Shown one piece after another: positions 3,641 to 14,139 of a stretch of DNA of 64,000 nt. This stretch comes from a virus, in IMG/VR virus record IMGVR_UViG_3300036766_000988, positions 186,001-250,000 of that record; one strand, written 5' to 3'. The notes beneath the pieces are model-generated. The model worked only from the letters and a program-made list of their open reading frames with translations, was not told where the DNA came from and ran no database searches. The translations under genes and the position numbers were made by a program. The first letter of the stretch is position 1. Each line of letters starts with the position of its first letter.

Positions 3641-4120
3641 TCAGGTCTGCCGCTGGGTGACTTCCTCGGTGACTTCGGCCGCGATCTCTTCGATGTTGAT
3701 CTGCTTGGCGACGGAGGCGAAAGCAGTGAGGTCATTGTTCCATGCCCCGTGTCGGCGAAGGATCGTGGCGAACTCCTGGACGTCGGGCTCGCGCATGGTC
3801 CACTTCATGGAGCTGTCTTCCTCGTTCTCTTCTCCCGTGCAGCGTTCGAGGAGATGGTCGACGAGAGCCGAGCGCTGTTGCTCGCTCATGTCGTTCCACT
3901 GATCCATACCGACTTCGAGCATGAAGTCGGAGTCGAGTAGAAACTCCAGAACGCCGGAAACCTTGCGAACCTTCCCAGGGACCGGCTTGCCATTCTTGAT
4001 GGAGGCCTTGTCCACGAACACGTACTTCACCCGAGCCGTCGCCAGCTCGGGGTGGTACATGGGGATGAGGTTCTTGGCAATGGCCTCGACAGACTCCGCG
4101 CTACCGTAGACTTTGGGCAT
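3641..4120 (-). CDS. phage metallopeptidase-like protein
   Basis: 159 residues from ATG 4120, with GGAG 8 bases upstream; it overlaps the primase gene end by 20 bases. The middle and C-terminal parts (LVDHLLERC, then EPDVQEFATILRRHGAW) recall the family annotated as putative phage metallopeptidase. There an HExxH-type helix is followed by a conserved D-x-x-E-F-x-x-I-x-R-x-G-x-W block. Here the metal motif is degenerate (H-L-L-E-R), so activity is doubtful. Family assignment is from memory of the motif and moderate at best. Confidence 0.5.
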   Translation of the reverse strand: MPKVYGSAESVEAIAKNLIPMYHPELATARVKYVFVDKASIKNGKPVPGKVRKVSGVLEFLLDSDFMLEVGMDQWNDMSEQQRSALVDHLLERCTGEENEEDSSMKWTMREPDVQEFATILRRHGAWNNDLTAFASVAKQINIEEIAAEVTEEVTQRQT

Positions 4121-4838
4121 TATGGGTCTCCATGTCGTCCGAACCCAATTGAGTTCGGAGGTACTCCTGGAACCGAACATCCCCCCAAGTTTCCCAGAGG
4201 TCTCCTGGGTCCTTGGTGAGCTTGTCGGTCCCGATCATCGGGACAGTGGGATACGAGATAGTCCGTATACCAAATTCGTGACCGTGACTCTCCCTAAAAC
4301 GCTTCGAGACTCTCCGGCCGGTCTCATCCGCATCATATCCGAGCCAAATCCGCTCTACAAGACGTCGTAGGATGCGGAGGAAAGGTTCGGTCACCCTTGC
4401 CGTGAGCGTTGCGACGACTCCAGGGAAGACGCGCTGCACCGGGAAGAGGTCGAAACCGCCTTCGACGAGATACACCGAGCGTGTTGCCCAGACGTGGGGC
4501 ATCGCTTGAGCGAGCCCGAAAAGGACCGCCTCGTCCTTCCCCTCGATAAAGTCCATGTAGCCCGCGCGGTCTCTGGACACGTACCTGAACTGCACCCCAC
4601 GGATGGTGCCGATCGTGTTCGTCAGAGGCAGGACCAGAACATCGTCGAGCTTGGCCCCTCCATCCGACCACTTGAGGAAGGCCTGGGGGTAGTCCGCATC
4701 GGGCAGCTCTTTGTTGAGGTACCCGAGACCGTACGTAGCGATCTGCTGTTCGGACACGCCTCTAGCAGAGAGGGCGTCGAGAACTCTTTCGTTCAGGCGT
4801 CCGCAAGCGCCTGTCGTCAGATCATCGAGCCACGTCAT
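4101..4838 (-). CDS. DnaG-type primase core with Toprim domain, no zinc finger
   Basis: Makes RNA primers for replication forks. The 245-residue protein starts with the RNA-polymerase-domain helix typical of DnaG (LNERVLDALSARGVS). It then has a Toprim fold: EGGFD supplies the catalytic Glu and IWLGYDADETG the Asp-x-Asp pair. The usual N-terminal zinc-binding domain is absent, and the C-terminal helicase-interaction domain is short. No separate zinc-finger gene is obvious next to it. ATG 4838 overlaps the preceding gene by 17 bases. Confidence 0.85.
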   Translation of the reverse strand: MTWLDDLTTGACGRLNERVLDALSARGVSEQQIATYGLGYLNKELPDADYPQAFLKWSDGGAKLDDVLVLPLTNTIGTIRGVQFRYVSRDRAGYMDFIEGKDEAVLFGLAQAMPHVWATRSVYLVEGGFDLFPVQRVFPGVVATLTARVTEPFLRILRRLVERIWLGYDADETGRRVSKRFRESHGHEFGIRTISYPTVPMIGTDKLTKDPGDLWETWGDVRFQEYLRTQLGSDDMETHNAQSLR

Positions 4839-5403: not shown

Positions 5404-5948
5404 CACGTGTCCTTCGGAGCTTCGAGGAGCTTGGCGATGTCGTAGCTCGGTTGTACCGGCTCGACCCGGATTCGAAGCATCCGATACCAAAGACGCTTCC
5501 ACCATGGGATCCGCACCTTGCTGACCTCTGTATCGAGCGCCCAAAAGAGACCGTACATCTCAGGCATGTGGCTGGACACCCACTCCACGTTCTCGACATC
5601 TCGCCGGAAATTCTCTTCGAGGGTCTCTTTGGTTTGGGTCGGCGTGAAGTAGGGGCACCTCTGTGCATCGATGGGGTCTTCGCAGATGTTGCCCTGCCAC
5701 TGATCGGGATGCTCAGCTCCCAACATGCAGAGCCCCATTGTCTGCACTACAGGAAGCCCCCGGGAATCAGCGACTCGGTTGAAGCTGTCGTTGGGAGATC
5801 CTTCCACCAATTTCCGTGTGTCGAGGGGTTGTTGGTGGTTGTGCGTGCAGAGATGAGGGAGACGACGAGATGCCTCGTCCACACGTCGATCTAGCTCCTG
5901 AACGAGCAGGAACCGGATACGATCTGTGATCTGGCTCTGGGTTTTCAT
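5403..5948 (-). CDS. hypothetical Cys/His-containing protein
   Basis: 181 residues from ATG 5948, which overlaps the SbcC C-half stop as ATGA. Cys and His residues cluster between residues 35 and 100 (CTHNHQQP, then CMLGAEH, NICEDP and RCPYF), enough for one zinc or Fe-S site. A basic Trp-rich patch (WWKRLWYRMLRIR) lies near the C-terminus. Family not recognised. Confidence 0.65.
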   Translation of the reverse strand: MKTQSQITDRIRFLLVQELDRRVDEASRRLPHLCTHNHQQPLDTRKLVEGSPNDSFNRVADSRGLPVVQTMGLCMLGAEHPDQWQGNICEDPIDAQRCPYFTPTQTKETLEENFRRDVENVEWVSSHMPEMYGLFWALDTEVSKVRIPWWKRLWYRMLRIRVEPVQPSYDIAKLLEAPKDT

Positions 5949-6640
5949 CGTGCGCCTCGCATTCGACGAAGACCGAGACTCCAAGAGCCGTTGGTCTCCT
6001 CAGTGACACTGTGACCCTGGTACGCTAGATCCGCGTGATCGAGAAAAGCTTGCTTCTGAGAGACGTATAGGATGTGGATCCCTGTCGTCGCAGCGAGCTT
6101 CTTCAAGAACTGTCCGGCCGCGTCGATGTATTCGTCGCCGTTGATCGCCCCCAAGGTCTCATCGAGGAACAGAACAGGGGCACGTTTCAGACGAAGGATC
6201 GCAAGGAGTCGCAGCACCAAAGACGCAATGCTGGACGGGCCCCCTCCGAACGATTCCAGAGGGTGCCCTCGAACCGCCATCGTCTCACTCCCCTGGCGGA
6301 AGAAAAAGTCGATGGCGACCTTGTTGTACTTCTGCGAGATCTCGGCTTCGAACGTGAGTTGCTGGTCGAAGAAAATCGCCCGTAGCCCTTCGGTGACGAT
6401 CCCCTCGATCGTCCGTACCTGATCGGTGACGAGCTTGTCCATCAGGACCCGGAGAAGTTCTCCGACTTTGGTGAGACGTTCGATCTGACGCGATAGGGCT
6501 TCGACCTCCCGCTGCTTACCCTCCAGGTCACCCACGATCTGATCGCGGATGGCCTGGATTCGAGCTGCGTTTCGGTTGAGGGTCTGGACCCGTCGGCGCC
6601 AGGTCAGTCCTTGCTGGGCATGAAGCGCGTCACCCGGCAC
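5945..6640 (-). CDS. C-terminal half of an SbcC/Rad50-like ATPase
   Basis: The protein (up to 231 residues) begins with a coiled coil. It then carries the ABC signature region (SFGGGPSSIASL), Walker B VLFLDETLG and the downstream switch, as at the C-terminus of SbcC/Rad50/gp46 proteins. It has no Walker A. That is supplied by the N-terminal half-gene at 10560-11918, so the two ATPase lobes are separate polypeptides. The first start is a GTG at 6640, overlapping the clamp gene by 37 bases; a later start is possible. It should form a nuclease complex with the SbcD-like protein at 9567-10547. Confidence 0.85.
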   Translation of the reverse strand: MPGDALHAQQGLTWRRRVQTLNRNAARIQAIRDQIVGDLEGKQREVEALSRQIERLTKVGELLRVLMDKLVTDQVRTIEGIVTEGLRAIFFDQQLTFEAEISQKYNKVAIDFFFRQGSETMAVRGHPLESFGGGPSSIASLVLRLLAILRLKRAPVLFLDETLGAINGDEYIDAAGQFLKKLAATTGIHILYVSQKQAFLDHADLAYQGHSVTEETNGSWSLGLRRMRGAR

Positions 6641-7905
6641 TTGCTACCACCTTCCGGACGCTTCTCGTTGCCAGCCTCGTCCTTCTCGGTGGAGGAGCCC
6701 CCGATGACCTTCCCTTCGTTGTTCATCCAGAACTCGTCGATCGTGCGGAACATCGCCGCACCTTTCGGACGCCTGTCATCCGGCGGCACCGTGAGCACGC
6801 GGAACAAGACCTCGTGTCCCTTCAAGTCACCGATCAGCTCGATGAGCTGTGTGATGTTGAGGTTGTACTGGAAGTCCTTCTCCTCCGCGAGCTGGACCTC
6901 GACCGGTACCGGGAAGGCTCCGGTCTTGGATCCCCCATCACTGGCGGTGAAGTAGAGCTTCTTCTCCGACGCCTTGTATTGAATGTGGATCTTGTCGCGG
7001 TTCGTTTCGAGCCCTGAACGCGTGAAGTTGAGAGCGTTCATGAGCGTGACCTTGGCCATACGGAAGACGTACTGGTCGTGCTTGAGCGGCAGGTAGGAGT
7101 ACTTCGAATGCGTCTTCGAGTGAAAGGCCCAACCGAAGACCTGCTCGCCCTCGACATTCCCTTCCTTGTTCTTGATCTCGTTGGCAGCGAACATCATGTG
7201 CTTGCCGTGGCGGATCTCGACCGGCCCCTCGCATTTGCTGAGGAAGGCCCCCAGCCGATCGAGGTGGGCGCCGTGAATGGCAACCCCGTCGTTCTTGAAG
7301 GCCTCCGAATAGAACCAGAAGGCCTTGGTACCATTCGTCGCGTACATGTTGCCGTTGCCCTTGGCCCATGCCTCGTTCGTCTCGTCGAAGATCTGCACCG
7401 TTTTGAGGTGGTCTTCGGCGCGGGTGTCCTTCGCATCGGCGATGAATTTCTTCGAGAGGCTGATCGCCTCACGTAGGATCCCCGCAGCGAACGTCTTCTT
7501 CTGCCCCGCGGCCTCGAAGTCGTCGTCGATTGGCGAGATGAACCTCGGGTCGAACGACATCATCTCCTTGTGAGCTTCGCTCGTCGACTTGAACTGCACT
7601 GCGTAGTCGGGGCCTTCCGTCTTCACGTCGAAGTCGATCTCGTCGTCAGGGATGTACTGGATCCCGGCGAGAAGCATGGGGGGTGCGATGAACGACCCCT
7701 CGCCATCGAGTTCGAGGAGCTTGATGTCCGCCCTGGCGACCTCGGTCTGGTCCCGTGAGTAGACGTGGCATCGGGGAAGCCCATCCTTCAAGTACGCCTT
7801 GAAGAGATAGCCTGCACCCCCTTGAGTCGTAACCGGACTCGGAGTGACGTTGCCGACGATGTTGAGAGCCCTGATGAGATCGGCAGCCTTGAGCTTGAAG
7901 CGCAT
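6604..7905 (-). CDS. dnaN: DNA polymerase III beta-like sliding clamp
   Basis: 433 residues. The N-terminus MRFKLKAADLIRALNIVG matches the first beta-clamp domain. Three repeated alpha/beta modules can be followed, and the C-terminus (CRVTRFMP) resembles the clamp end YxVMPxR. The clamp tethers the polymerase and recruits ligase and repair factors. ATG 7905 is chosen because GAGG lies 6 bases upstream; two further in-frame ATGs exist at 7917 and 7911. It is slightly longer than usual because of acidic insertions near the C-terminus. It sits between the two SbcC half-genes. Confidence 0.88.
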   Translation of the reverse strand: MRFKLKAADLIRALNIVGNVTPSPVTTQGGAGYLFKAYLKDGLPRCHVYSRDQTEVARADIKLLELDGEGSFIAPPMLLAGIQYIPDDEIDFDVKTEGPDYAVQFKSTSEAHKEMMSFDPRFISPIDDDFEAAGQKKTFAAGILREAISLSKKFIADAKDTRAEDHLKTVQIFDETNEAWAKGNGNMYATNGTKAFWFYSEAFKNDGVAIHGAHLDRLGAFLSKCEGPVEIRHGKHMMFAANEIKNKEGNVEGEQVFGWAFHSKTHSKYSYLPLKHDQYVFRMAKVTLMNALNFTRSGLETNRDKIHIQYKASEKKLYFTASDGGSKTGAFPVPVEVQLAEEKDFQYNLNITQLIELIGDLKGHEVLFRVLTVPPDDRRPKGAAMFRTIDEFWMNNEGKVIGGSSTEKDEAGNEKRPEGGSKCRVTRFMPSKD

Positions 7906-7913
7906 GTTCATCC

Positions 7914-8186
7914 TCATTTCTTGTCGAATGCGGCGATGGCCTGCTCGGCAGCCACGAGGTCTTTCTCGTACGCGACCACCATCGTATTCAGGTTCTGTTC
8001 GGCCTTGTCTCGTTCAGAGGCAAGGTTCTTGGGGTCATGCCCTGCTGCGCGGATCTCTTTGATCAAGACCGCCAGCTCTTCCTTTTTGGCTTCGAGTTGA
8101 CCTCCCACTCCGGCCTTCTTCTTGTTGAAGGCATCCGTGCGGCGGATCAAATCCTCGACCTTTTTCTTTAGTTCTTCGGGAGCCAT
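7914..8186 (-). CDS. small coiled-coil protein
   Basis: 90 residues, almost entirely charged heptad-like helix (EELKKKVEDLI, QLEAKKEELAVLIKEI, then SERDKAEQNLNTM). No Cys and no membrane segment. Its stop is just upstream of the clamp start. It could be a coiled-coil partner of the split SbcC ATPase that lies on both sides, but nothing in the sequence proves this. Confidence 0.65.
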   Translation of the reverse strand: MAPEELKKKVEDLIRRTDAFNKKKAGVGGQLEAKKEELAVLIKEIRAAGHDPKNLASERDKAEQNLNTMVVAYEKDLVAAEQAIAAFDKK

Positions 8187-8230
8187 CGATTCTCCTAACC
8201 GTTAGTCTCGACTTTGAGCGCTGGGGCTTC

Positions 8231-9133
8231 TCAAAAACCCACGTCTTCTACACCTGCGCCGTCAGGAATGGGGGCCCGAATGCTGCCAAAATACGTTCCC
8301 TCGGGGCAGATGGGCTTGAACGCGCAGAGACGGCACCGATCGCCGGGACTCACCGGGAACAGCTCTTGAAGGGCGGCGGTCTGATTCGCCCCTTGGAAGG
8401 TCGCTAGCCGTGTCTTGGCCTCTTCGATCCGCTTCATGGAGTCGAGGACGCCGTTCTGTAGCTCCAAGAGGTCCGCTTCAGTGAACGGGACCCAGTCGAG
8501 CGCCTGCTCAGCCTCAAATCGCCAGAAAACGAACCCGATCTTGTCTGGCATGAAGCCGTGCCGCAGCCGATGGAGCATCGCGTACCACCGGAGCTGGCTG
8601 GGATCGACATACTTGTCCCGCCATTTGGAACCCTTGCCGTCCAGTAGGATCAGATCGTTGTGCGGGGGGATCCGCTTGATGAGAAAGTCAGCCCGCCCAC
8701 CGATGGTATGCCCTTCGATGGTGTGGTCGAGCTTCACTTCGGCTTCGGACTGAGTCGGGCCGAGGAGCTTGTGGTGCCGAATAATCGAGAGCCCCCTGGG
8801 GATGGCCGATCGCACGTCATCGAGGAGTGCCTCGGGAGTTTCGTAGTTGGCCTTCTCGTCGTCGGGCTTCCAACGGATTGCCCCGTCACGGGATTCCTTG
8901 ACGAGCGCTCTTCGATAGTGAGCGGGTACGAGACCGAGGAGCGTTTGCTCGATACCGGACTGCCGCCAGATGCGCTCACTGTAGAACGTCTCGAATAGCC
9001 CTCCGACGATGGTGCCGAAGAGAGAGTTGACCCGATTGTCGGGCACATCCAACCGCGTTTTGTTGACGTACTGGTGCCAGTAGATACGAGGGCAGGACGA
9101 GAACGATTTGTGACCTGTGTAGGAGAGGTACAT
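8231..9133 (-). CDS. RecB/Cas4-like PD-(D/E)XK nuclease with probable Fe-S cluster
   Basis: 300 residues. N-terminal SYTGHKSFSSCPRIYWHQYV holds the first Cys. GGRADFLI and LILLDGKGSK give the nuclease core (Asp, then Asp-x-Lys). The C-terminal CRLCAFKPIC provides three more Cys, so a 4Fe-4S staple as in AddB/Cas4 nucleases is likely. It probably resects DNA ends together with SbcCD. ATG 9133 overlaps the previous stop as TGATG. Confidence 0.85.
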   Translation of the reverse strand: MYLSYTGHKSFSSCPRIYWHQYVNKTRLDVPDNRVNSLFGTIVGGLFETFYSERIWRQSGIEQTLLGLVPAHYRRALVKESRDGAIRWKPDDEKANYETPEALLDDVRSAIPRGLSIIRHHKLLGPTQSEAEVKLDHTIEGHTIGGRADFLIKRIPPHNDLILLDGKGSKWRDKYVDPSQLRWYAMLHRLRHGFMPDKIGFVFWRFEAEQALDWVPFTEADLLELQNGVLDSMKRIEEAKTRLATFQGANQTAALQELFPVSPGDRCRLCAFKPICPEGTYFGSIRAPIPDGAGVEDVGF

Positions 9134-9567
9134 CAGACCGCCTTGATGTCGCCCGGACGCTCGCCGGGGTAGTCGTTGAAGATGCCAAGCGCCTGACGCT
9201 TATGCCCAGTCTTCGTAGAGTGCTTCTCGTTTGCCTGCGTCATGCGTTGGATTTGGAAATCAACCTGGAGGTCGGACTGTTTCGACAACCACATCGAGAT
9301 GGTCGTACACATCAGAGACCAAAGGGGATTGACCCACCCGTCTGCCCGCTTGAAGAGACGGTCGTAGTTTGCATCTTCCATGATGAAGCGAACGTCTACG
9401 TCCCTAAAGTCACGTCGTGTGAGGGACGAGCCGACGAGGTAACATCCGTACTCACCGAGCGCCTGGTTGACGATCACACAGGCTTGGTTGAGATTGTACG
9501 AGTTCGTTGCTGGTAGGTAGTCCGCCCGCCACTTCACCGGCTCTGGGGCCTTCTCTTCGTCGATCAT
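9133..9567 (-). CDS. minimal nucleotidyltransferase-fold protein
   Basis: 144 residues. The motif LVGSSLTRRDFRDVDVRFIM is the G-S-x(n)-D-x-D core of polymerase-beta-like nucleotidyltransferases; the third carboxylate is in LQVDFQIQ. ATG 9567 is preceded by GGAGGTGG and overlaps the sbcD stop by one base. Substrate unknown. Family members include MNT antitoxins and RNA or antibiotic nucleotidyltransferases. A second such protein lies at 51213. Confidence 0.75.
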   Translation of the reverse strand: MIDEEKAPEPVKWRADYLPATNSYNLNQACVIVNQALGEYGCYLVGSSLTRRDFRDVDVRFIMEDANYDRLFKRADGWVNPLWSLMCTTISMWLSKQSDLQVDFQIQRMTQANEKHSTKTGHKRQALGIFNDYPGERPGDIKAV

Positions 9568-10547
9568 CAACCCACCTCCGCTCGTGCGCGTTCCAGATAG
9601 TCCTTGGCGAGGTCGCGTACATCGGTTGCGAAGTCGAGCGCCGCTAGGTTGTCTTCGATCGACTTGGTTGCATCGAAGGTGGTGCTCGCTTGCAACGCCC
9701 CGATGAACTGGTCAATGTTCGTGTCCTCTTTCTCTTGCCGCTCTTTGCGTTCTAGGTCGAAGACATCCTCGGCAGGCGCAACGATGAGAGGGAGAGGGAC
9801 GACCCGAATCCCTGACGGGTCGGCTTCGATGTACGCGACCTTGGGCGTTCGATGGAGGTTCTCACGTACGAGAGCCCCTCGTGAGACAGCCCCGAGGTTG
9901 ACGAACTGCTGCGTACCAATCTCGACGATCCCTTGATCTTTGTGCCAGTGTCCGAAGCACCAGACATCCGGACCATCCTCCGACACGAGATCGGCGTAGT
10001 CGAAAACAGGTTCCCCAAAGAAGTCCTCGACACTTGCGGGAGGGCTATCCCCAGCGAGCGCATGAACGACTGCTACCAAGAACGTGTCCCCCGGTTTCTT
10101 CTTGATCGCCCGCAAATCCGCCAGCGTGCGGAAGGGGCTGTAGGGCATCCCCACCACACGAACTTGGAGCTGCCCATCCGAAAAGACGTGTTCCGTCATC
10201 TGAATGAACACCTCGGATGCGAGCAGAACTCCAAGGGGCTGGCGTTCTAGCGTCTCAAGGTTGTTGTACGAGATATCATGGTTGCCTGGGACCGTGAGGG
10301 TCGGGCAACGGTAGCCTCGATGGATTTTGGCGCTCTGCACGACGAGCGAATGAGGATTCCTACTGGCGCTCTTGATGTGGAAGTAGTCCCCTCCGTCCAG
10401 TACCGCGTCCGCATCGTACTCCTTGGCGTACTTGCCGATCTGAATGAGGTTGTCCCAAATCTCGGCTGCGTAGTCGCCTTTCCACGACGCTGGATTCCGA
10501 TCACAGACGTGCGTGTCGGTACGGTAGATGAACGATAGACGAGGCAT
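9567..10547 (-). CDS. sbcD: SbcD/Mre11-like metallophosphoesterase nuclease
   Basis: 326 residues with the full set of metallophosphoesterase motifs: TDTHV, GGDYFH, GNHD, VVHA and FGHWH. This is the nuclease subunit of Mre11-Rad50 type complexes, which trim blocked DNA ends and hairpins. It lies 12 bases downstream of the N-terminal SbcC half-gene. The C-terminal 60 residues are helical and acidic, as expected for Rad50 coiled-coil binding. Confidence 0.9.
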   Translation of the reverse strand: MPRLSFIYRTDTHVCDRNPASWKGDYAAEIWDNLIQIGKYAKEYDADAVLDGGDYFHIKSASRNPHSLVVQSAKIHRGYRCPTLTVPGNHDISYNNLETLERQPLGVLLASEVFIQMTEHVFSDGQLQVRVVGMPYSPFRTLADLRAIKKKPGDTFLVAVVHALAGDSPPASVEDFFGEPVFDYADLVSEDGPDVWCFGHWHKDQGIVEIGTQQFVNLGAVSRGALVRENLHRTPKVAYIEADPSGIRVVPLPLIVAPAEDVFDLERKERQEKEDTNIDQFIGALQASTTFDATKSIEDNLAALDFATDVRDLAKDYLERARAEVG

Positions 10548-10559
10548 TTTCAGGGCCCA

Positions 10560-11918
10560 CTACACCCGCTGCTCGTGTCCCCCGGCATGAAAAGGCTGGG
10601 TACACGTTGGGCAAACTCCGAGGGCATCCCACTCGGCCTGGATGGCAACTCCATCGGTCTCGATCCCACGGTATTGATCCGTGAGAGTCGCCACTAGGGT
10701 GGTGAGTGCTTGATATCTTCTAGCAAGCCCCTCCAGACCTTCGAATGTTCTCGATGTCTCCGAGAGCTTCTCTGGCAACAGGGCGGACCCATTTGCTTCG
10801 ATCACCTCGTACAACTCGGTAAGAGCTGTCATCAAGCGTGTCACAGCTTGGTACCGCACTGCTAGTCGTTCGAGGCTTTCGTAGGACTCCAAGGATTCGG
10901 AGAGCTTTCCCGGTGCCAGCTCGGGGGAGGCATCGAGGGCCTTCGTACGCTCCAACCACGCCTTGAAGATACGAAGCTTGGCGATCCACCCCTCCAATGC
11001 CTCGAAGGTGGCTGCATGCGAACGCAGGGAATCTGGTTCGGGGGCAGAAACCGTCTCGATGGCTTGCAAAGCTTGAACGGCGGTCACGCGCTCGGTCCAC
11101 TGGGTGAGAAACCGAATCATCTGCGCGTGATTCTTCGACACGTCCGCAAGGGGGTTTGAATCAGGAGCTTGAAGGGCCATCACCGCTTCGAGGGCTGCCA
11201 CATGCTGCCCAAGAGCCGCCGCCCGTTCTAGGAACTTCTCGATGTTGAGGAGCTTCGTTTCTGCTGCCTCAACACTATCGAGCTGATCCTCAATATCCCG
11301 TACATTGGCTAGCGCCGTGTCCAGCCCATCGAAAAGGACAACCCTCCTGGTGAGGTCTGCGATGTCTTGTTCCCGCACTTTACGGGTCGAGGAGGCCTCT
11401 TTACGATCCTTCTCGGAGAGCCGGGTCGCGATGTTCACCCGATCCAGGTGGGCCACATCCGAGAGTACGTCAGCGACAACCCCGCCCGTCTGGTTCAAGA
11501 GGAAGATGGGATCGAACTGGTCCGCTACCTGTAGTAGTTCCTTGTCTTCGCCGATCTTCACCAAGGAGTAGATCGGCTGCAAGAAATCTGGGGTTCCACG
11601 TTCGGCCTTATCGTAGACCTTGCCATTGAACGTGTAACGGTTGATGGCGTCGCCCTTCTCCCAGAGGAGATCGAACGTCTCCGATCGGAGATGCACGGAG
11701 CAAAAGCACTTGCAGGTCTTGGCGCTCTTGACCTTCCTCGGACAGTCGGGAGAGTGGCGAACAAAAGAGGTCGAAGGCGCTCCCGTGAGGGCAGCTTTCA
11801 CTGCCCTCACGACCGCCGACTTACCGATGTTGCTACGCCCCACCAGGGCGGTGAAGCCCTGGATTTGAATTGCAGCGTGCTCAATCGACTGGAAGTTTCG
11901 AACCTCTACGTCGATCAC
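10560..11918 (-). CDS. N-terminal half of an SbcC/Rad50-like ATPase ending at a zinc hook
   Basis: 452 residues. The N-terminus has Walker A (GRSNIGKSAV) and the Rad50 N-lobe. Residues about 150-430 are a long coiled coil with repeated ESLERLAVRYQA-like blocks, and the protein stops soon after CPTC, the zinc-hook motif. The returning coil and C-lobe are missing here but are encoded at 5945-6640. An extra Cys cluster (CPRK...TCKCFC) is inserted at about residues 60-76. The start is GTG 11918, overlapping the recA stop as GTGA. Confidence 0.88.
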   Translation of the reverse strand: MIDVEVRNFQSIEHAAIQIQGFTALVGRSNIGKSAVVRAVKAALTGAPSTSFVRHSPDCPRKVKSAKTCKCFCSVHLRSETFDLLWEKGDAINRYTFNGKVYDKAERGTPDFLQPIYSLVKIGEDKELLQVADQFDPIFLLNQTGGVVADVLSDVAHLDRVNIATRLSEKDRKEASSTRKVREQDIADLTRRVVLFDGLDTALANVRDIEDQLDSVEAAETKLLNIEKFLERAAALGQHVAALEAVMALQAPDSNPLADVSKNHAQMIRFLTQWTERVTAVQALQAIETVSAPEPDSLRSHAATFEALEGWIAKLRIFKAWLERTKALDASPELAPGKLSESLESYESLERLAVRYQAVTRLMTALTELYEVIEANGSALLPEKLSETSRTFEGLEGLARRYQALTTLVATLTDQYRGIETDGVAIQAEWDALGVCPTCTQPFHAGGHEQRV

Positions 11919-13486
11919 CCCGCATCCCCGTCCCCATCTCCATCGAGAGCGCTGAGATCGGCCGCATCTTCCGCGTCGATCACCGTCTCGGAGGGCTTGG
12001 CCTCTGTCCCTTCCTCGTCGTCACCGAAGGCATCAGACAGATCTTCGAGGATCGCGTCCTCTGCGGACAGCTCCTCATCCGAGATGGCAGTCGGAGCTTG
12101 CGCGATGAGGGCTTCGGAAACCTGGGCCTTCACCTCTTCGAAGACTGCGGTATTGGAGAGCAGGTACGCGCGGAACTTGTCTCGGCTCTGGATGCGTTCG
12201 TTGCCGTACGAGTAGTACGCCCCATCCCGCTTGACGACTCCCGTGGCGACCCCCGACTCGATGACCGAATAGATGTCGTCCACACCGTAGCCATAGCGAA
12301 TGAAGATGTTCGCCGAGTGCCCTTGCTTTGCGTCGGCCTTCGACTTCACCATCTTGATCGCAGTGACGTTGCCATAGGGGAACTTCTTCTTCTTGCCTGT
12401 GGCCATGTCCTTGCGCTCGATCATCTCCGACGAGATACGAGCGAGCCGCAGACGAACGTAGGCGAAGTACTTGAGAGCCTTGCCGCCCGCCGTGTTGGGC
12501 TCGGGGGCACCGTGACCACCGCCCGTCGAAATCGTAGCGCGTTCCTGATTGAGGAAGATGAGGGCCGTGCCCTTGGCGTCCTTGCGGGGCTTCTTGTTCT
12601 CGCCCGTCCCTTCCATCGGGTGCTTCATGAGCCAGAGAGCGAACTTGGGTAGGGTCTCGCTCATCTTCTTTGCGACGGCGCCGATCTTGGCCACATCGTC
12701 GATCTTCTTCTCCAGCTCGTCCTTCGGGACCATGGCGGCGATGGAGTCGACGATGATGAGATCGACTCCAGATGCGATGCCGACGAACATCGCCTTGAAG
12801 CCCTCTTCCATCGTATCGGGAGCAGCGAGCGTCCACGTGTCGTCGAATTTGACCCCGATCTGCTTTGCGTACCCGTGGTGGATGGCGTGCTCGAAGTCGA
12901 GGTACAGAACGGAACCTCCACGGCGCTGCACATCGGCCGCAGCCGCAAGAGCCACCGTGGTCTTACCGCTCGACTCAGGTCCGTAGATCTCGGTGATCTT
13001 CCGACGCGGGTAACCCGGGCATACAGAGCCCTTGCCGTCTTGGGTCTTCGATCCTCCGATGAGGTTGTTGATGATGATCGACCCCGACGGTACGTGGGCC
13101 ATCGTGCTCATTGCCGTCTCGACCGGCTTGATACCGATCTTGTTGAGCATCGAACGCATGAGCGAAGCGGTCTGAGAACCCTGCGATGCAGAAGTCTTGA
13201 CGGTCTTCGCTGCGGGTTTGGCTGCGGGCTTGGCAACCGCAGGAGGCGCCGCCACAGGTTTGGCTGCCACAGGCGTGGCAACAGCGGTCTTGGCCGCCAC
13301 GGGCTTGGGAGGAAGCTCCTTCAGAGCTTCGGGCTTTGCCGCACTGGTCTTCTTCGCGTAGCAGGCTTCACACTCAAGCCGTAGCCCATCTTTGGCTCTC
13401 TTGTCTGGGCCGAACGGCCCAGAGCCCCCACATGCTGTGCAGGTCTTCGTTGCAGTGCTGTCCGTGTTCTTGGGATCGATAGTCAT
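11915..13486 (-). CDS. recA: RecA recombinase with N-terminal zinc-ribbon extension
   Basis: 523 residues. The RecA core has Walker A GPESSGKTT, Walker B LIIVDSIAAMVP, the L2-region FLNQ and TAGGKALKYFAYVRLRL. Before it are about 95 extra residues: a Cys4 module (CTACGG and CEACY) and a long Ala/Pro/Lys linker. The tail is very acidic (GDGDGDAG), as in RecA and SSB tails. It catalyses strand exchange. ATG 13486 overlaps the ruvC stop as ATGA. Longer upstream frame excluded because it lies inside ruvC. Confidence 0.93.
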   Translation of the reverse strand: MTIDPKNTDSTATKTCTACGGSGPFGPDKRAKDGLRLECEACYAKKTSAAKPEALKELPPKPVAAKTAVATPVAAKPVAAPPAVAKPAAKPAAKTVKTSASQGSQTASLMRSMLNKIGIKPVETAMSTMAHVPSGSIIINNLIGGSKTQDGKGSVCPGYPRRKITEIYGPESSGKTTVALAAAADVQRRGGSVLYLDFEHAIHHGYAKQIGVKFDDTWTLAAPDTMEEGFKAMFVGIASGVDLIIVDSIAAMVPKDELEKKIDDVAKIGAVAKKMSETLPKFALWLMKHPMEGTGENKKPRKDAKGTALIFLNQERATISTGGGHGAPEPNTAGGKALKYFAYVRLRLARISSEMIERKDMATGKKKKFPYGNVTAIKMVKSKADAKQGHSANIFIRYGYGVDDIYSVIESGVATGVVKRDGAYYSYGNERIQSRDKFRAYLLSNTAVFEEVKAQVSEALIAQAPTAISDEELSAEDAILEDLSDAFGDDEEGTEAKPSETVIDAEDAADLSALDGDGDGDAG

Positions 13487-14139
13487 GAGGTACCATCCAT
13501 CAATTTGGAAAACCGATAGAATCGAGAGTTCTCTTTGAAGATCGCCCCACAATACACCGTCTCGCCTGCCCGTTCCCCTCTCTTGAGAGTGCGTACCTTC
13601 GCGAATGCTCGATACTCGGACGGTGTGAGGTCGTCGTTGGTGATCTTCTCGTCGAGGCGTAGGAAGAACCGCGCAGCAAACCTCGCCACGTGGTAAGCGT
13701 CCGCCTCATTGTGGTTGAACCGGCCCGTGATACCCGTATCGACTTTCGCTGCCGCTACCATGTCGGCTTTGAACATCTTGCCTTTACGGGCCTTCGGATC
13801 GAGCTTCGCTAGCATCTTCACAGTGCCGGGGTCGAAGTACACGACATCCTTGCGGTGCGTGTAGACCACCTCGTTTGTGTAGACGAAAAGCGCGTAGGCA
13901 CCGGGCGACCATTGCTCGCCGTAAACCGGGGATTCGATGCCTATACACTCGACTTCAGGATGATCCGCGAGGAGCTTCGTCAGCATGTCGCGAAAGTCCA
14001 TGTACCGTTTGACGAAGACCGTTTTGGCCGACGTCGAGAACAGGCCTTTCGCTAGAATGCGTGCGGGTCCCTCGGCCTCCGAATCATGAATGCACCAGCC
14101 GTAGCCAGTGATCGATGGGTCGAATCCAAGTGAGATCAT
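13483..14139 (-). CDS. ruvC: RuvC-like Holliday junction resolvase
   Basis: 218 residues with an RNase H fold. FDPSITGYGW holds the first catalytic Asp, IGIESPVYG the Glu, and HNEADAYHVARF the C-terminal acidic pair. It resolves recombination or branched replication intermediates and fits with the recA and sbcCD neighbours. The C-terminal 40 residues are a basic extension (VRTLKRGERAG) not usual in RuvC. Confidence 0.9.
   Translation of the reverse strand: MISLGFDPSITGYGWCIHDSEAEGPARILAKGLFSTSAKTVFVKRYMDFRDMLTKLLADHPEVECIGIESPVYGEQWSPGAYALFVYTNEVVYTHRKDVVYFDPGTVKMLAKLDPKARKGKMFKADMVAAAKVDTGITGRFNHNEADAYHVARFAARFFLRLDEKITNDDLTPSEYRAFAKVRTLKRGERAGETVYCGAIFKENSRFYRFSKLMDGTS

Follow-up and report, generated by a model that had tools for sequence, protein, structure and literature searches.

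The textbook Rad50 is a single chain whose coiled coil runs out, turns at a zinc hook and returns. Here we describe a stretch of viral DNA of 64,000 nucleotides (the window; positions 186001-250000 of the 252,183-base IMG/VR virus record IMGVR_UViG_3300036766_000988), which very probably codes for an Mre11-Rad50 (SbcD-SbcC) complex with a natural split. The N-terminal half of Rad50 (Rad50-N) and the C-terminal half (Rad50-C) are separate genes, accompanied by genes for an SbcD/Mre11-like nuclease and a short coiled-coil protein, designated K, and the four chains would assemble as proposed below. Positions refer to the window unless preceded by a locus label from our scans (L004, L048, L106 etc.); the features are compiled in Table 1.

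With ordinary Mre11-Rad50/SbcCD the split system shares the head lobes, Walker A and Walker B, the Q-loop, the CPxC hook motif and an SbcD partner in every locus. It differs in that Rad50 is broken at the hook into two chains, that the ordinary return coil is missing, that the arm is built from repeats, that the serine of the ABC signature is replaced by glycine, and that K is constantly present. A head made of two chains has a counterpart in the Pyrococcus furiosus Rad50 crystals (1f2t, 1ii8, 3qkr), in which chain A is lobe I and chain B is lobe II (149 and 148 amino acids (aa) in 1f2t) and which are among the top or near-top matches of our halves. Since these entries comprise separate chains, assembly of a Rad50 head from two polypeptides is possible. 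The crystallized proteins are reportedly laboratory constructs cut near the head, whereas the split described here is natural, lies at the hook and leaves the arm on one chain.

Two further relatives deserve comparison. Lamassu LmuB is likewise Rad50-like, is small and frequently has a CPxC hook (PMC10586767), and the N-half of a Bacillus phage matches PADLOC LmuB (1e-14). However, LmuB is a single chain accompanied by the LmuA effector and LmuC, whereas the split Rad50 consists of two chains with SbcD as partner and, unlike LmuB as described in PMC10586767, retains the Walker B glutamate. The gp46-like phage SbcC proteins (L048, L051-L055) are likewise phage Rad50s, of ~580 aa and with CPxC in mid-chain, but they are unsplit, and K was undetected in the four such records searched. 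A review of jumbo phages describes SbcC/SbcD as near-universal, and its passages on these two proteins leave a split unmentioned (PMC7824862). We found no description of a split Rad50/SbcC in the literature, a weak absence as most subscription papers lay outside the search.

Two separate halves of Rad50

Alignments were built from a non-redundant set of 60 loci carrying Rad50-N and Rad50-C as separate genes (A4, 60 N-halves; A5, 60 C-halves). Viral contigs scanned with both halves had yielded 116 loci, and others came from additional scans. SbcD was counted in 142 loci with both halves separate, and hooks were counted in 122 distinct complete N-halves. When compared with the PDB, the A4 profile matched Rad50 best (3aux, 4e-11), while its C-terminal end matched the zinc-hook structures 1l8d and 6zff (4.5e-6). 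In an Alkaliphilus plasmid, the N-half (residues 14-481) aligns with the NCBIfam Rad50 model, 878 positions long, from position 7 to 456, so that the hook is included. The Rad50-N of the window possesses a Rad50-type lobe I with Walker A and a Q-loop (Q134). In its AlphaFold model, lobe I mostly exceeds a predicted local distance difference test (pLDDT) value of 90, the overall mean pLDDT being 82 and the predicted template modelling score 0.43. Lobe I is followed by helices at residues 158-195, 199-247, 255-284, 296-329 and 343-432, the last of which reaches the hook. Foldseek returned P. furiosus Rad50 as top match, but a second structure aligner ranked SMC and Rad50 heads together (Z 9-11), so that structure alone cannot tell the two apart.

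The first-pass annotation had placed the end of Rad50-N right behind CPTC, and the open reading frame (ORF) does stop 13 residues past this motif. Across the 60 loci, no column of the N-half alignment other than the two hook cysteines is invariant (60/60), and the chain stops 2-22 residues past CxxC, which leaves no room for an SMC hinge domain at the arm tip. A terminal CxxC is present in 118 of the 122 complete N-halves, at a median of 10 residues from the end. Among 1939 other ORFs of at least 250 aa, any CxxC within the last 40 aa was found in 128 (6.6%) and CPxC in 7 (0.4%), and chance is therefore not an explanation for the motif. Apart from this, the N-half ORFs L111:8939-11146 and L166:7038-9245 encode 735 aa, with Walker A interrupted by an insert that displays intein features (a CVDC start, and an HN-type end before SGKS).

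Rad50-C was likewise found as announced by the earlier annotation: it comprises a coil, the signature region and Walker B and lacks an N-half, with the specification that the coil is short and the signature region reads GGG. Its GTG start at 6640 lies within the terminal part of the clamp gene and is preceded by a Shine-Dalgarno-like GGAAGGTGG at 6655-6647. The A5 profile placed chain B of Pyrococcus Rad50 first (3qkr_B, 5e-14; 1ii8_B, 2e-13), above SMC proteins and ABC transporters. The AlphaFold model (pLDDT 94) shows a single helix (residues 5-89) and then lobe II, and matches SMC and Rad50 heads. The Asp and Glu of Walker B are conserved in 59 of 60 C-halves, the remaining one having a gap. 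Some ORFs for Rad50-C are long; their extra part has no match to other genes and looks like an upstream extension of the start.

Hence, two genes, with the hook at the C-terminus of one, take the place of a single polypeptide in which the hook lies between outgoing and return coil. The earlier proposal that the ATPase is built from two chains is the best reading of these data, because each half is devoid of a full ABC site, the closest match of each is the corresponding half of Rad50, one copy of each has been kept in all whole records searched for the two, and their divergences are correlated (Mantel r 0.94). The 252,183-base record, which may be incomplete, contains no full-length SbcC and no second Rad50/SMC-type match, but one AAA_23/SMC_N match, which is Rad50-N itself, and one C-half. 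Similarly, 25 of 27 whole records (46-485 kb) contain a single AAA_23 match, and the other two contain an additional weak one.

The split family is a variant of Mre11-Rad50, and the split is widespread across phages and plasmids, a generality that extends the first-pass annotation. Sequenced isolates carrying it are Bacillus phage vB_BboS-125, Microbacterium phage Magritte, Microcystis phage Mvi-JY20 and Tunturiibacter phage Tunturi_5; it is also present on large Firmicutes plasmids, two of which carry other AAA_23 proteins too, and on a few bacterial genome contigs. An unsplit counterpart within the split family was sought among L048 and L051-L055, which match both half-profiles, but these are the ordinary gp46-like SbcC proteins with weak similarity (E ~1e-5) and were rejected as direct ancestors. 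PHROGs list the halves separately as 'exonuclease' (phrog_16465) and 'ATPase' (phrog_15167).

The arm and the coiled-coil protein K

In Rad50-C, one helix of ~85 residues precedes the first strand, which means that the Rad50 return strand is largely missing. In the N-halves, the arm spans 169-365 residues from Q-loop to hook, and this length correlates neither with the coil length of the C-half (rho 0.14) nor with the length of K (rho -0.08). The N-arms are internally repetitive with a period of 41-47 residues (summed z 16.5 for 41). Within the clade of the window, distances from Walker A to the hook are 313, 356-363, 395-403 and 440 residues, i.e. they change in steps of approximately one repeat, and the repeat number varies by whole units. 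Because of the missing length correlation, the repeats and the reduced return coil, the arm does not look like an ordinary antiparallel coil of N- and C-strand.

K is the constant companion of the split, which the first-pass annotation had not recognized, although it had named the coiled coil at 7914 as a possible third chain. A coiled-coil ORF of 75-108 aa is present in all 60 non-redundant loci: 49 were detected by profile, 10 by inspection near Rad50-C or the clamp gene, and that of L120 via another frame. Where the profile detected K, its gene lies between those for the two halves and shares their strand (75/75 loci). Searching whole records with the K profile returned one strong match in 27 of 28 split records, and L119, the miss, has the ORF by inspection; no match was obtained in four whole records with unsplit SbcC. 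Conversely, a search starting from K led to 30 loci, all of which contain a C-half (30/30), while a scan with a single K protein as query returned one locus. In PHROGs, K mainly matched unnamed families. Since compact operons devoid of the clamp and nuclease neighbours still have K, its association with the split is independent of the replication cluster. The possibility that K is the post-hook segment of an unsplit SbcC was not supported by profile comparison (E 0.24). Natural K-C or N-K fusions were looked for and none was found.

From this distribution we infer that K serves the Rad50 part as a dedicated third chain, most likely packing on the arm in place of the return coil present in ordinary Rad50. 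One step further, the system may represent a distinct architectural class of Mre11-Rad50 composed of four chains (Rad50-N, Rad50-C, K and SbcD), in which a one-chain arm of helical repeats of 41-47 aa replaces the antiparallel coil, arm length can change in steps of entire repeats with no return strand having to match, the hook resides on a free end and K serves as dedicated arm/hook subunit. We give this class assignment an even chance of being correct.

Proposed assembly and rival explanations

In the proposed mechanism, Rad50-N would provide head lobe I and an arm ending in CPTC at its free C-terminus, and Rad50-C would provide lobe II and the short coil. Both chains would pair non-covalently at the head to generate one ABC ATPase unit, and two such N:C units would form the usual ATP-sandwich dimer. 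SbcD would dock at the arm base, zinc could join two N-chains hook to hook, and K would complete the arm. The presumptive role is processing and tethering of DNA ends in recombination-dependent phage replication.

Several observations weigh against a Rad50 of this kind. The canonical serine signature (LSGGE) is lacking: the Rad50 serine aligns to a glycine in GGG, the first G of which is conserved in 59/60 C-halves. The position of the H-loop histidine (6056-6058, within VSQK) is Gln in this virus, as in 5 of 60 C-halves, while 52 have His. Due to these two replacements, catalysis by the split Rad50 may differ from that of ordinary Rad50. Moreover, the hook is lost in one clade of N-halves (4/122), and the similarity of K to the coil of the C-half (hhalign, E 2e-7, probability 94%) may reflect heptad or coil bias. 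The hookless clade consists of L004:10839-11891 (Magritte gp155), L181, L191 and L193, and several of its members end in a similar short helical motif (DEAxxLAxxYxE-like).

An alternative holds that the split is functionally neutral, i.e. that N and C rebuild an ordinary Rad50 and that K is a separate protein of the replication operon with its own task. Retention of Walker A, Q-loop and Walker B in the head lobes would fit, as would the deposition of Pyrococcus Rad50 heads as two chains (1f2t A/B), and in the jumbo-phage layout K is placed among other replication genes. However, K accompanies the split in 60/60 loci, including compact operons and plasmids without those neighbours, and is absent from the four unsplit-SbcC records, while a C-half without most of the return coil makes an ordinary arm improbable. 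We therefore regard neutrality of the split as unlikely. Much less credible still is the idea that the halves form no joint ATPase and act alone or with other partners. The distance between their genes can be large (tens of kb in Magritte, 75 kb in a Jeotgalibacillus plasmid and 108 kb in Tunturi_5), yet neither half contains a complete ABC site, the active-site residues are near-invariant, and the single copies and correlated divergence likewise speak against this idea. Finally, a frameshift, an assembly error or decay of a full-length SbcC to a pseudogene would account for halves in different places and for nothing more. Other genes lie between the halves, each half has an independent start, and the same arrangement recurs in sequenced isolates and throughout the 60 non-redundant loci, which stem from many samples; such conservation renders this explanation untenable, and its chance is negligible.

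If a split Mre11-Rad50 is the correct reading, a machine for which one long looping chain had seemed necessary can apparently be assembled from separate parts. A natural Rad50 that is broken at the turn and has a reduced return strand and a small subunit would separate the contributions of loop topology, hook and arm length, a long-standing question for Rad50. Phage and plasmid genes annotated as 'hypothetical', 'exonuclease' or 'ATPase' would then belong to a single recombination complex. Small systems for tests are offered by Bacillus phage vB_BboS-125, Microcystis phage Mvi-JY20 and the Alkaliphilus plasmid pB6464.

Neighbouring genes and operon layouts

Table 1. Features of the split Rad50 locus and its neighbours in the window
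Feature	Position	Strand	Remarks
Rad50-C, C-terminal half (short coil, head lobe II with signature region, Walker B)	5945..6640	(-)	231 aa; PDB profile search
Walker B VLFLDE, residues 156-161 of Rad50-C	6158..6175	(-)	sequence motif
GGG at ABC signature position, residues 132-134 of Rad50-C	6239..6247	(-)	sequence motif, alignment
DNA polymerase sliding clamp, between K and Rad50-C; neighbour, outside core	6604..7917	(-)	phrog_947, E 7e-7
K, coiled-coil protein, proposed third chain of split Rad50	7914..8186	(-)	90 aa; profile and inspection across loci
PD-(D/E)XK (RecB/Cas4-like) nuclease; neighbour in jumbo-phage layout, outside compact operons	8231..9133	(-)	PF12705 3e-17
SbcD/Mre11-like nuclease (phosphoesterase), partner	9567..10547	(-)	PF00149 3e-11
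Rad50-N, N-terminal half of split Rad50/SbcC (head lobe I, repeat-built arm, terminal zinc-hook motif)	10560..11918	(-)	452 aa; PDB profile search, AlphaFold
Zinc-hook motif CPTC, residues 436-439 of Rad50-N	10602..10613	(-)	13 residues before stop
Walker A GRSNIGKS, residues 27-34 (G27-S34) of Rad50-N	11817..11840	(-)	sequence motif

SbcD/Mre11, the partner of Rad50/SbcC, is encoded nearby in all 142 loci with separate halves. Of the genes said to lie between the halves of the window, the clamp, the coil protein, the PD-(D/E)XK nuclease and SbcD were recovered by family match or position, but the proposed nucleotidyltransferase (9133-9570) had no family match. The compact operons, which lack the clamp and nuclease genes, comprise four genes in the order N-SbcD-K-C (L106, L109, L119, L121 and the Microcystis phage) or SbcD-N-K-C (Alkaliphilus). 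Occasionally SbcD and Rad50-N are naturally fused, also a finding beyond the earlier annotation, while K and C remain separate. Such fusions occur on a Paenibacillus plasmid (841 aa), on a Geobacillus plasmid (801 aa) and in L200 (780 aa), with coordinates L234:2962-5487, L238:3121-5526 and L200:434-2776. An 813-aa frame at ~375 kb of CP009417.1 (Jeotgalibacillus) is likely another SbcD-Rad50N fusion.

In Bacillus phage vB_BboS-125, a gene annotated as encoding an AP2-domain protein (L005:10584-11156) lies between the N-half and K; as such genes are often mobile, it may bear on the origin of the split. Within the window, a primase-like ORF of 245 aa (4101-4838) matches just the Toprim part of phage primases, and no zinc-binding or helicase part was seen in this ORF. 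Next to Rad50-N, a UvsX/RecA-like recombinase (11915-13552) carries a Lar-like cysteine-rich N-terminal extension (weak match to phrog_5558).

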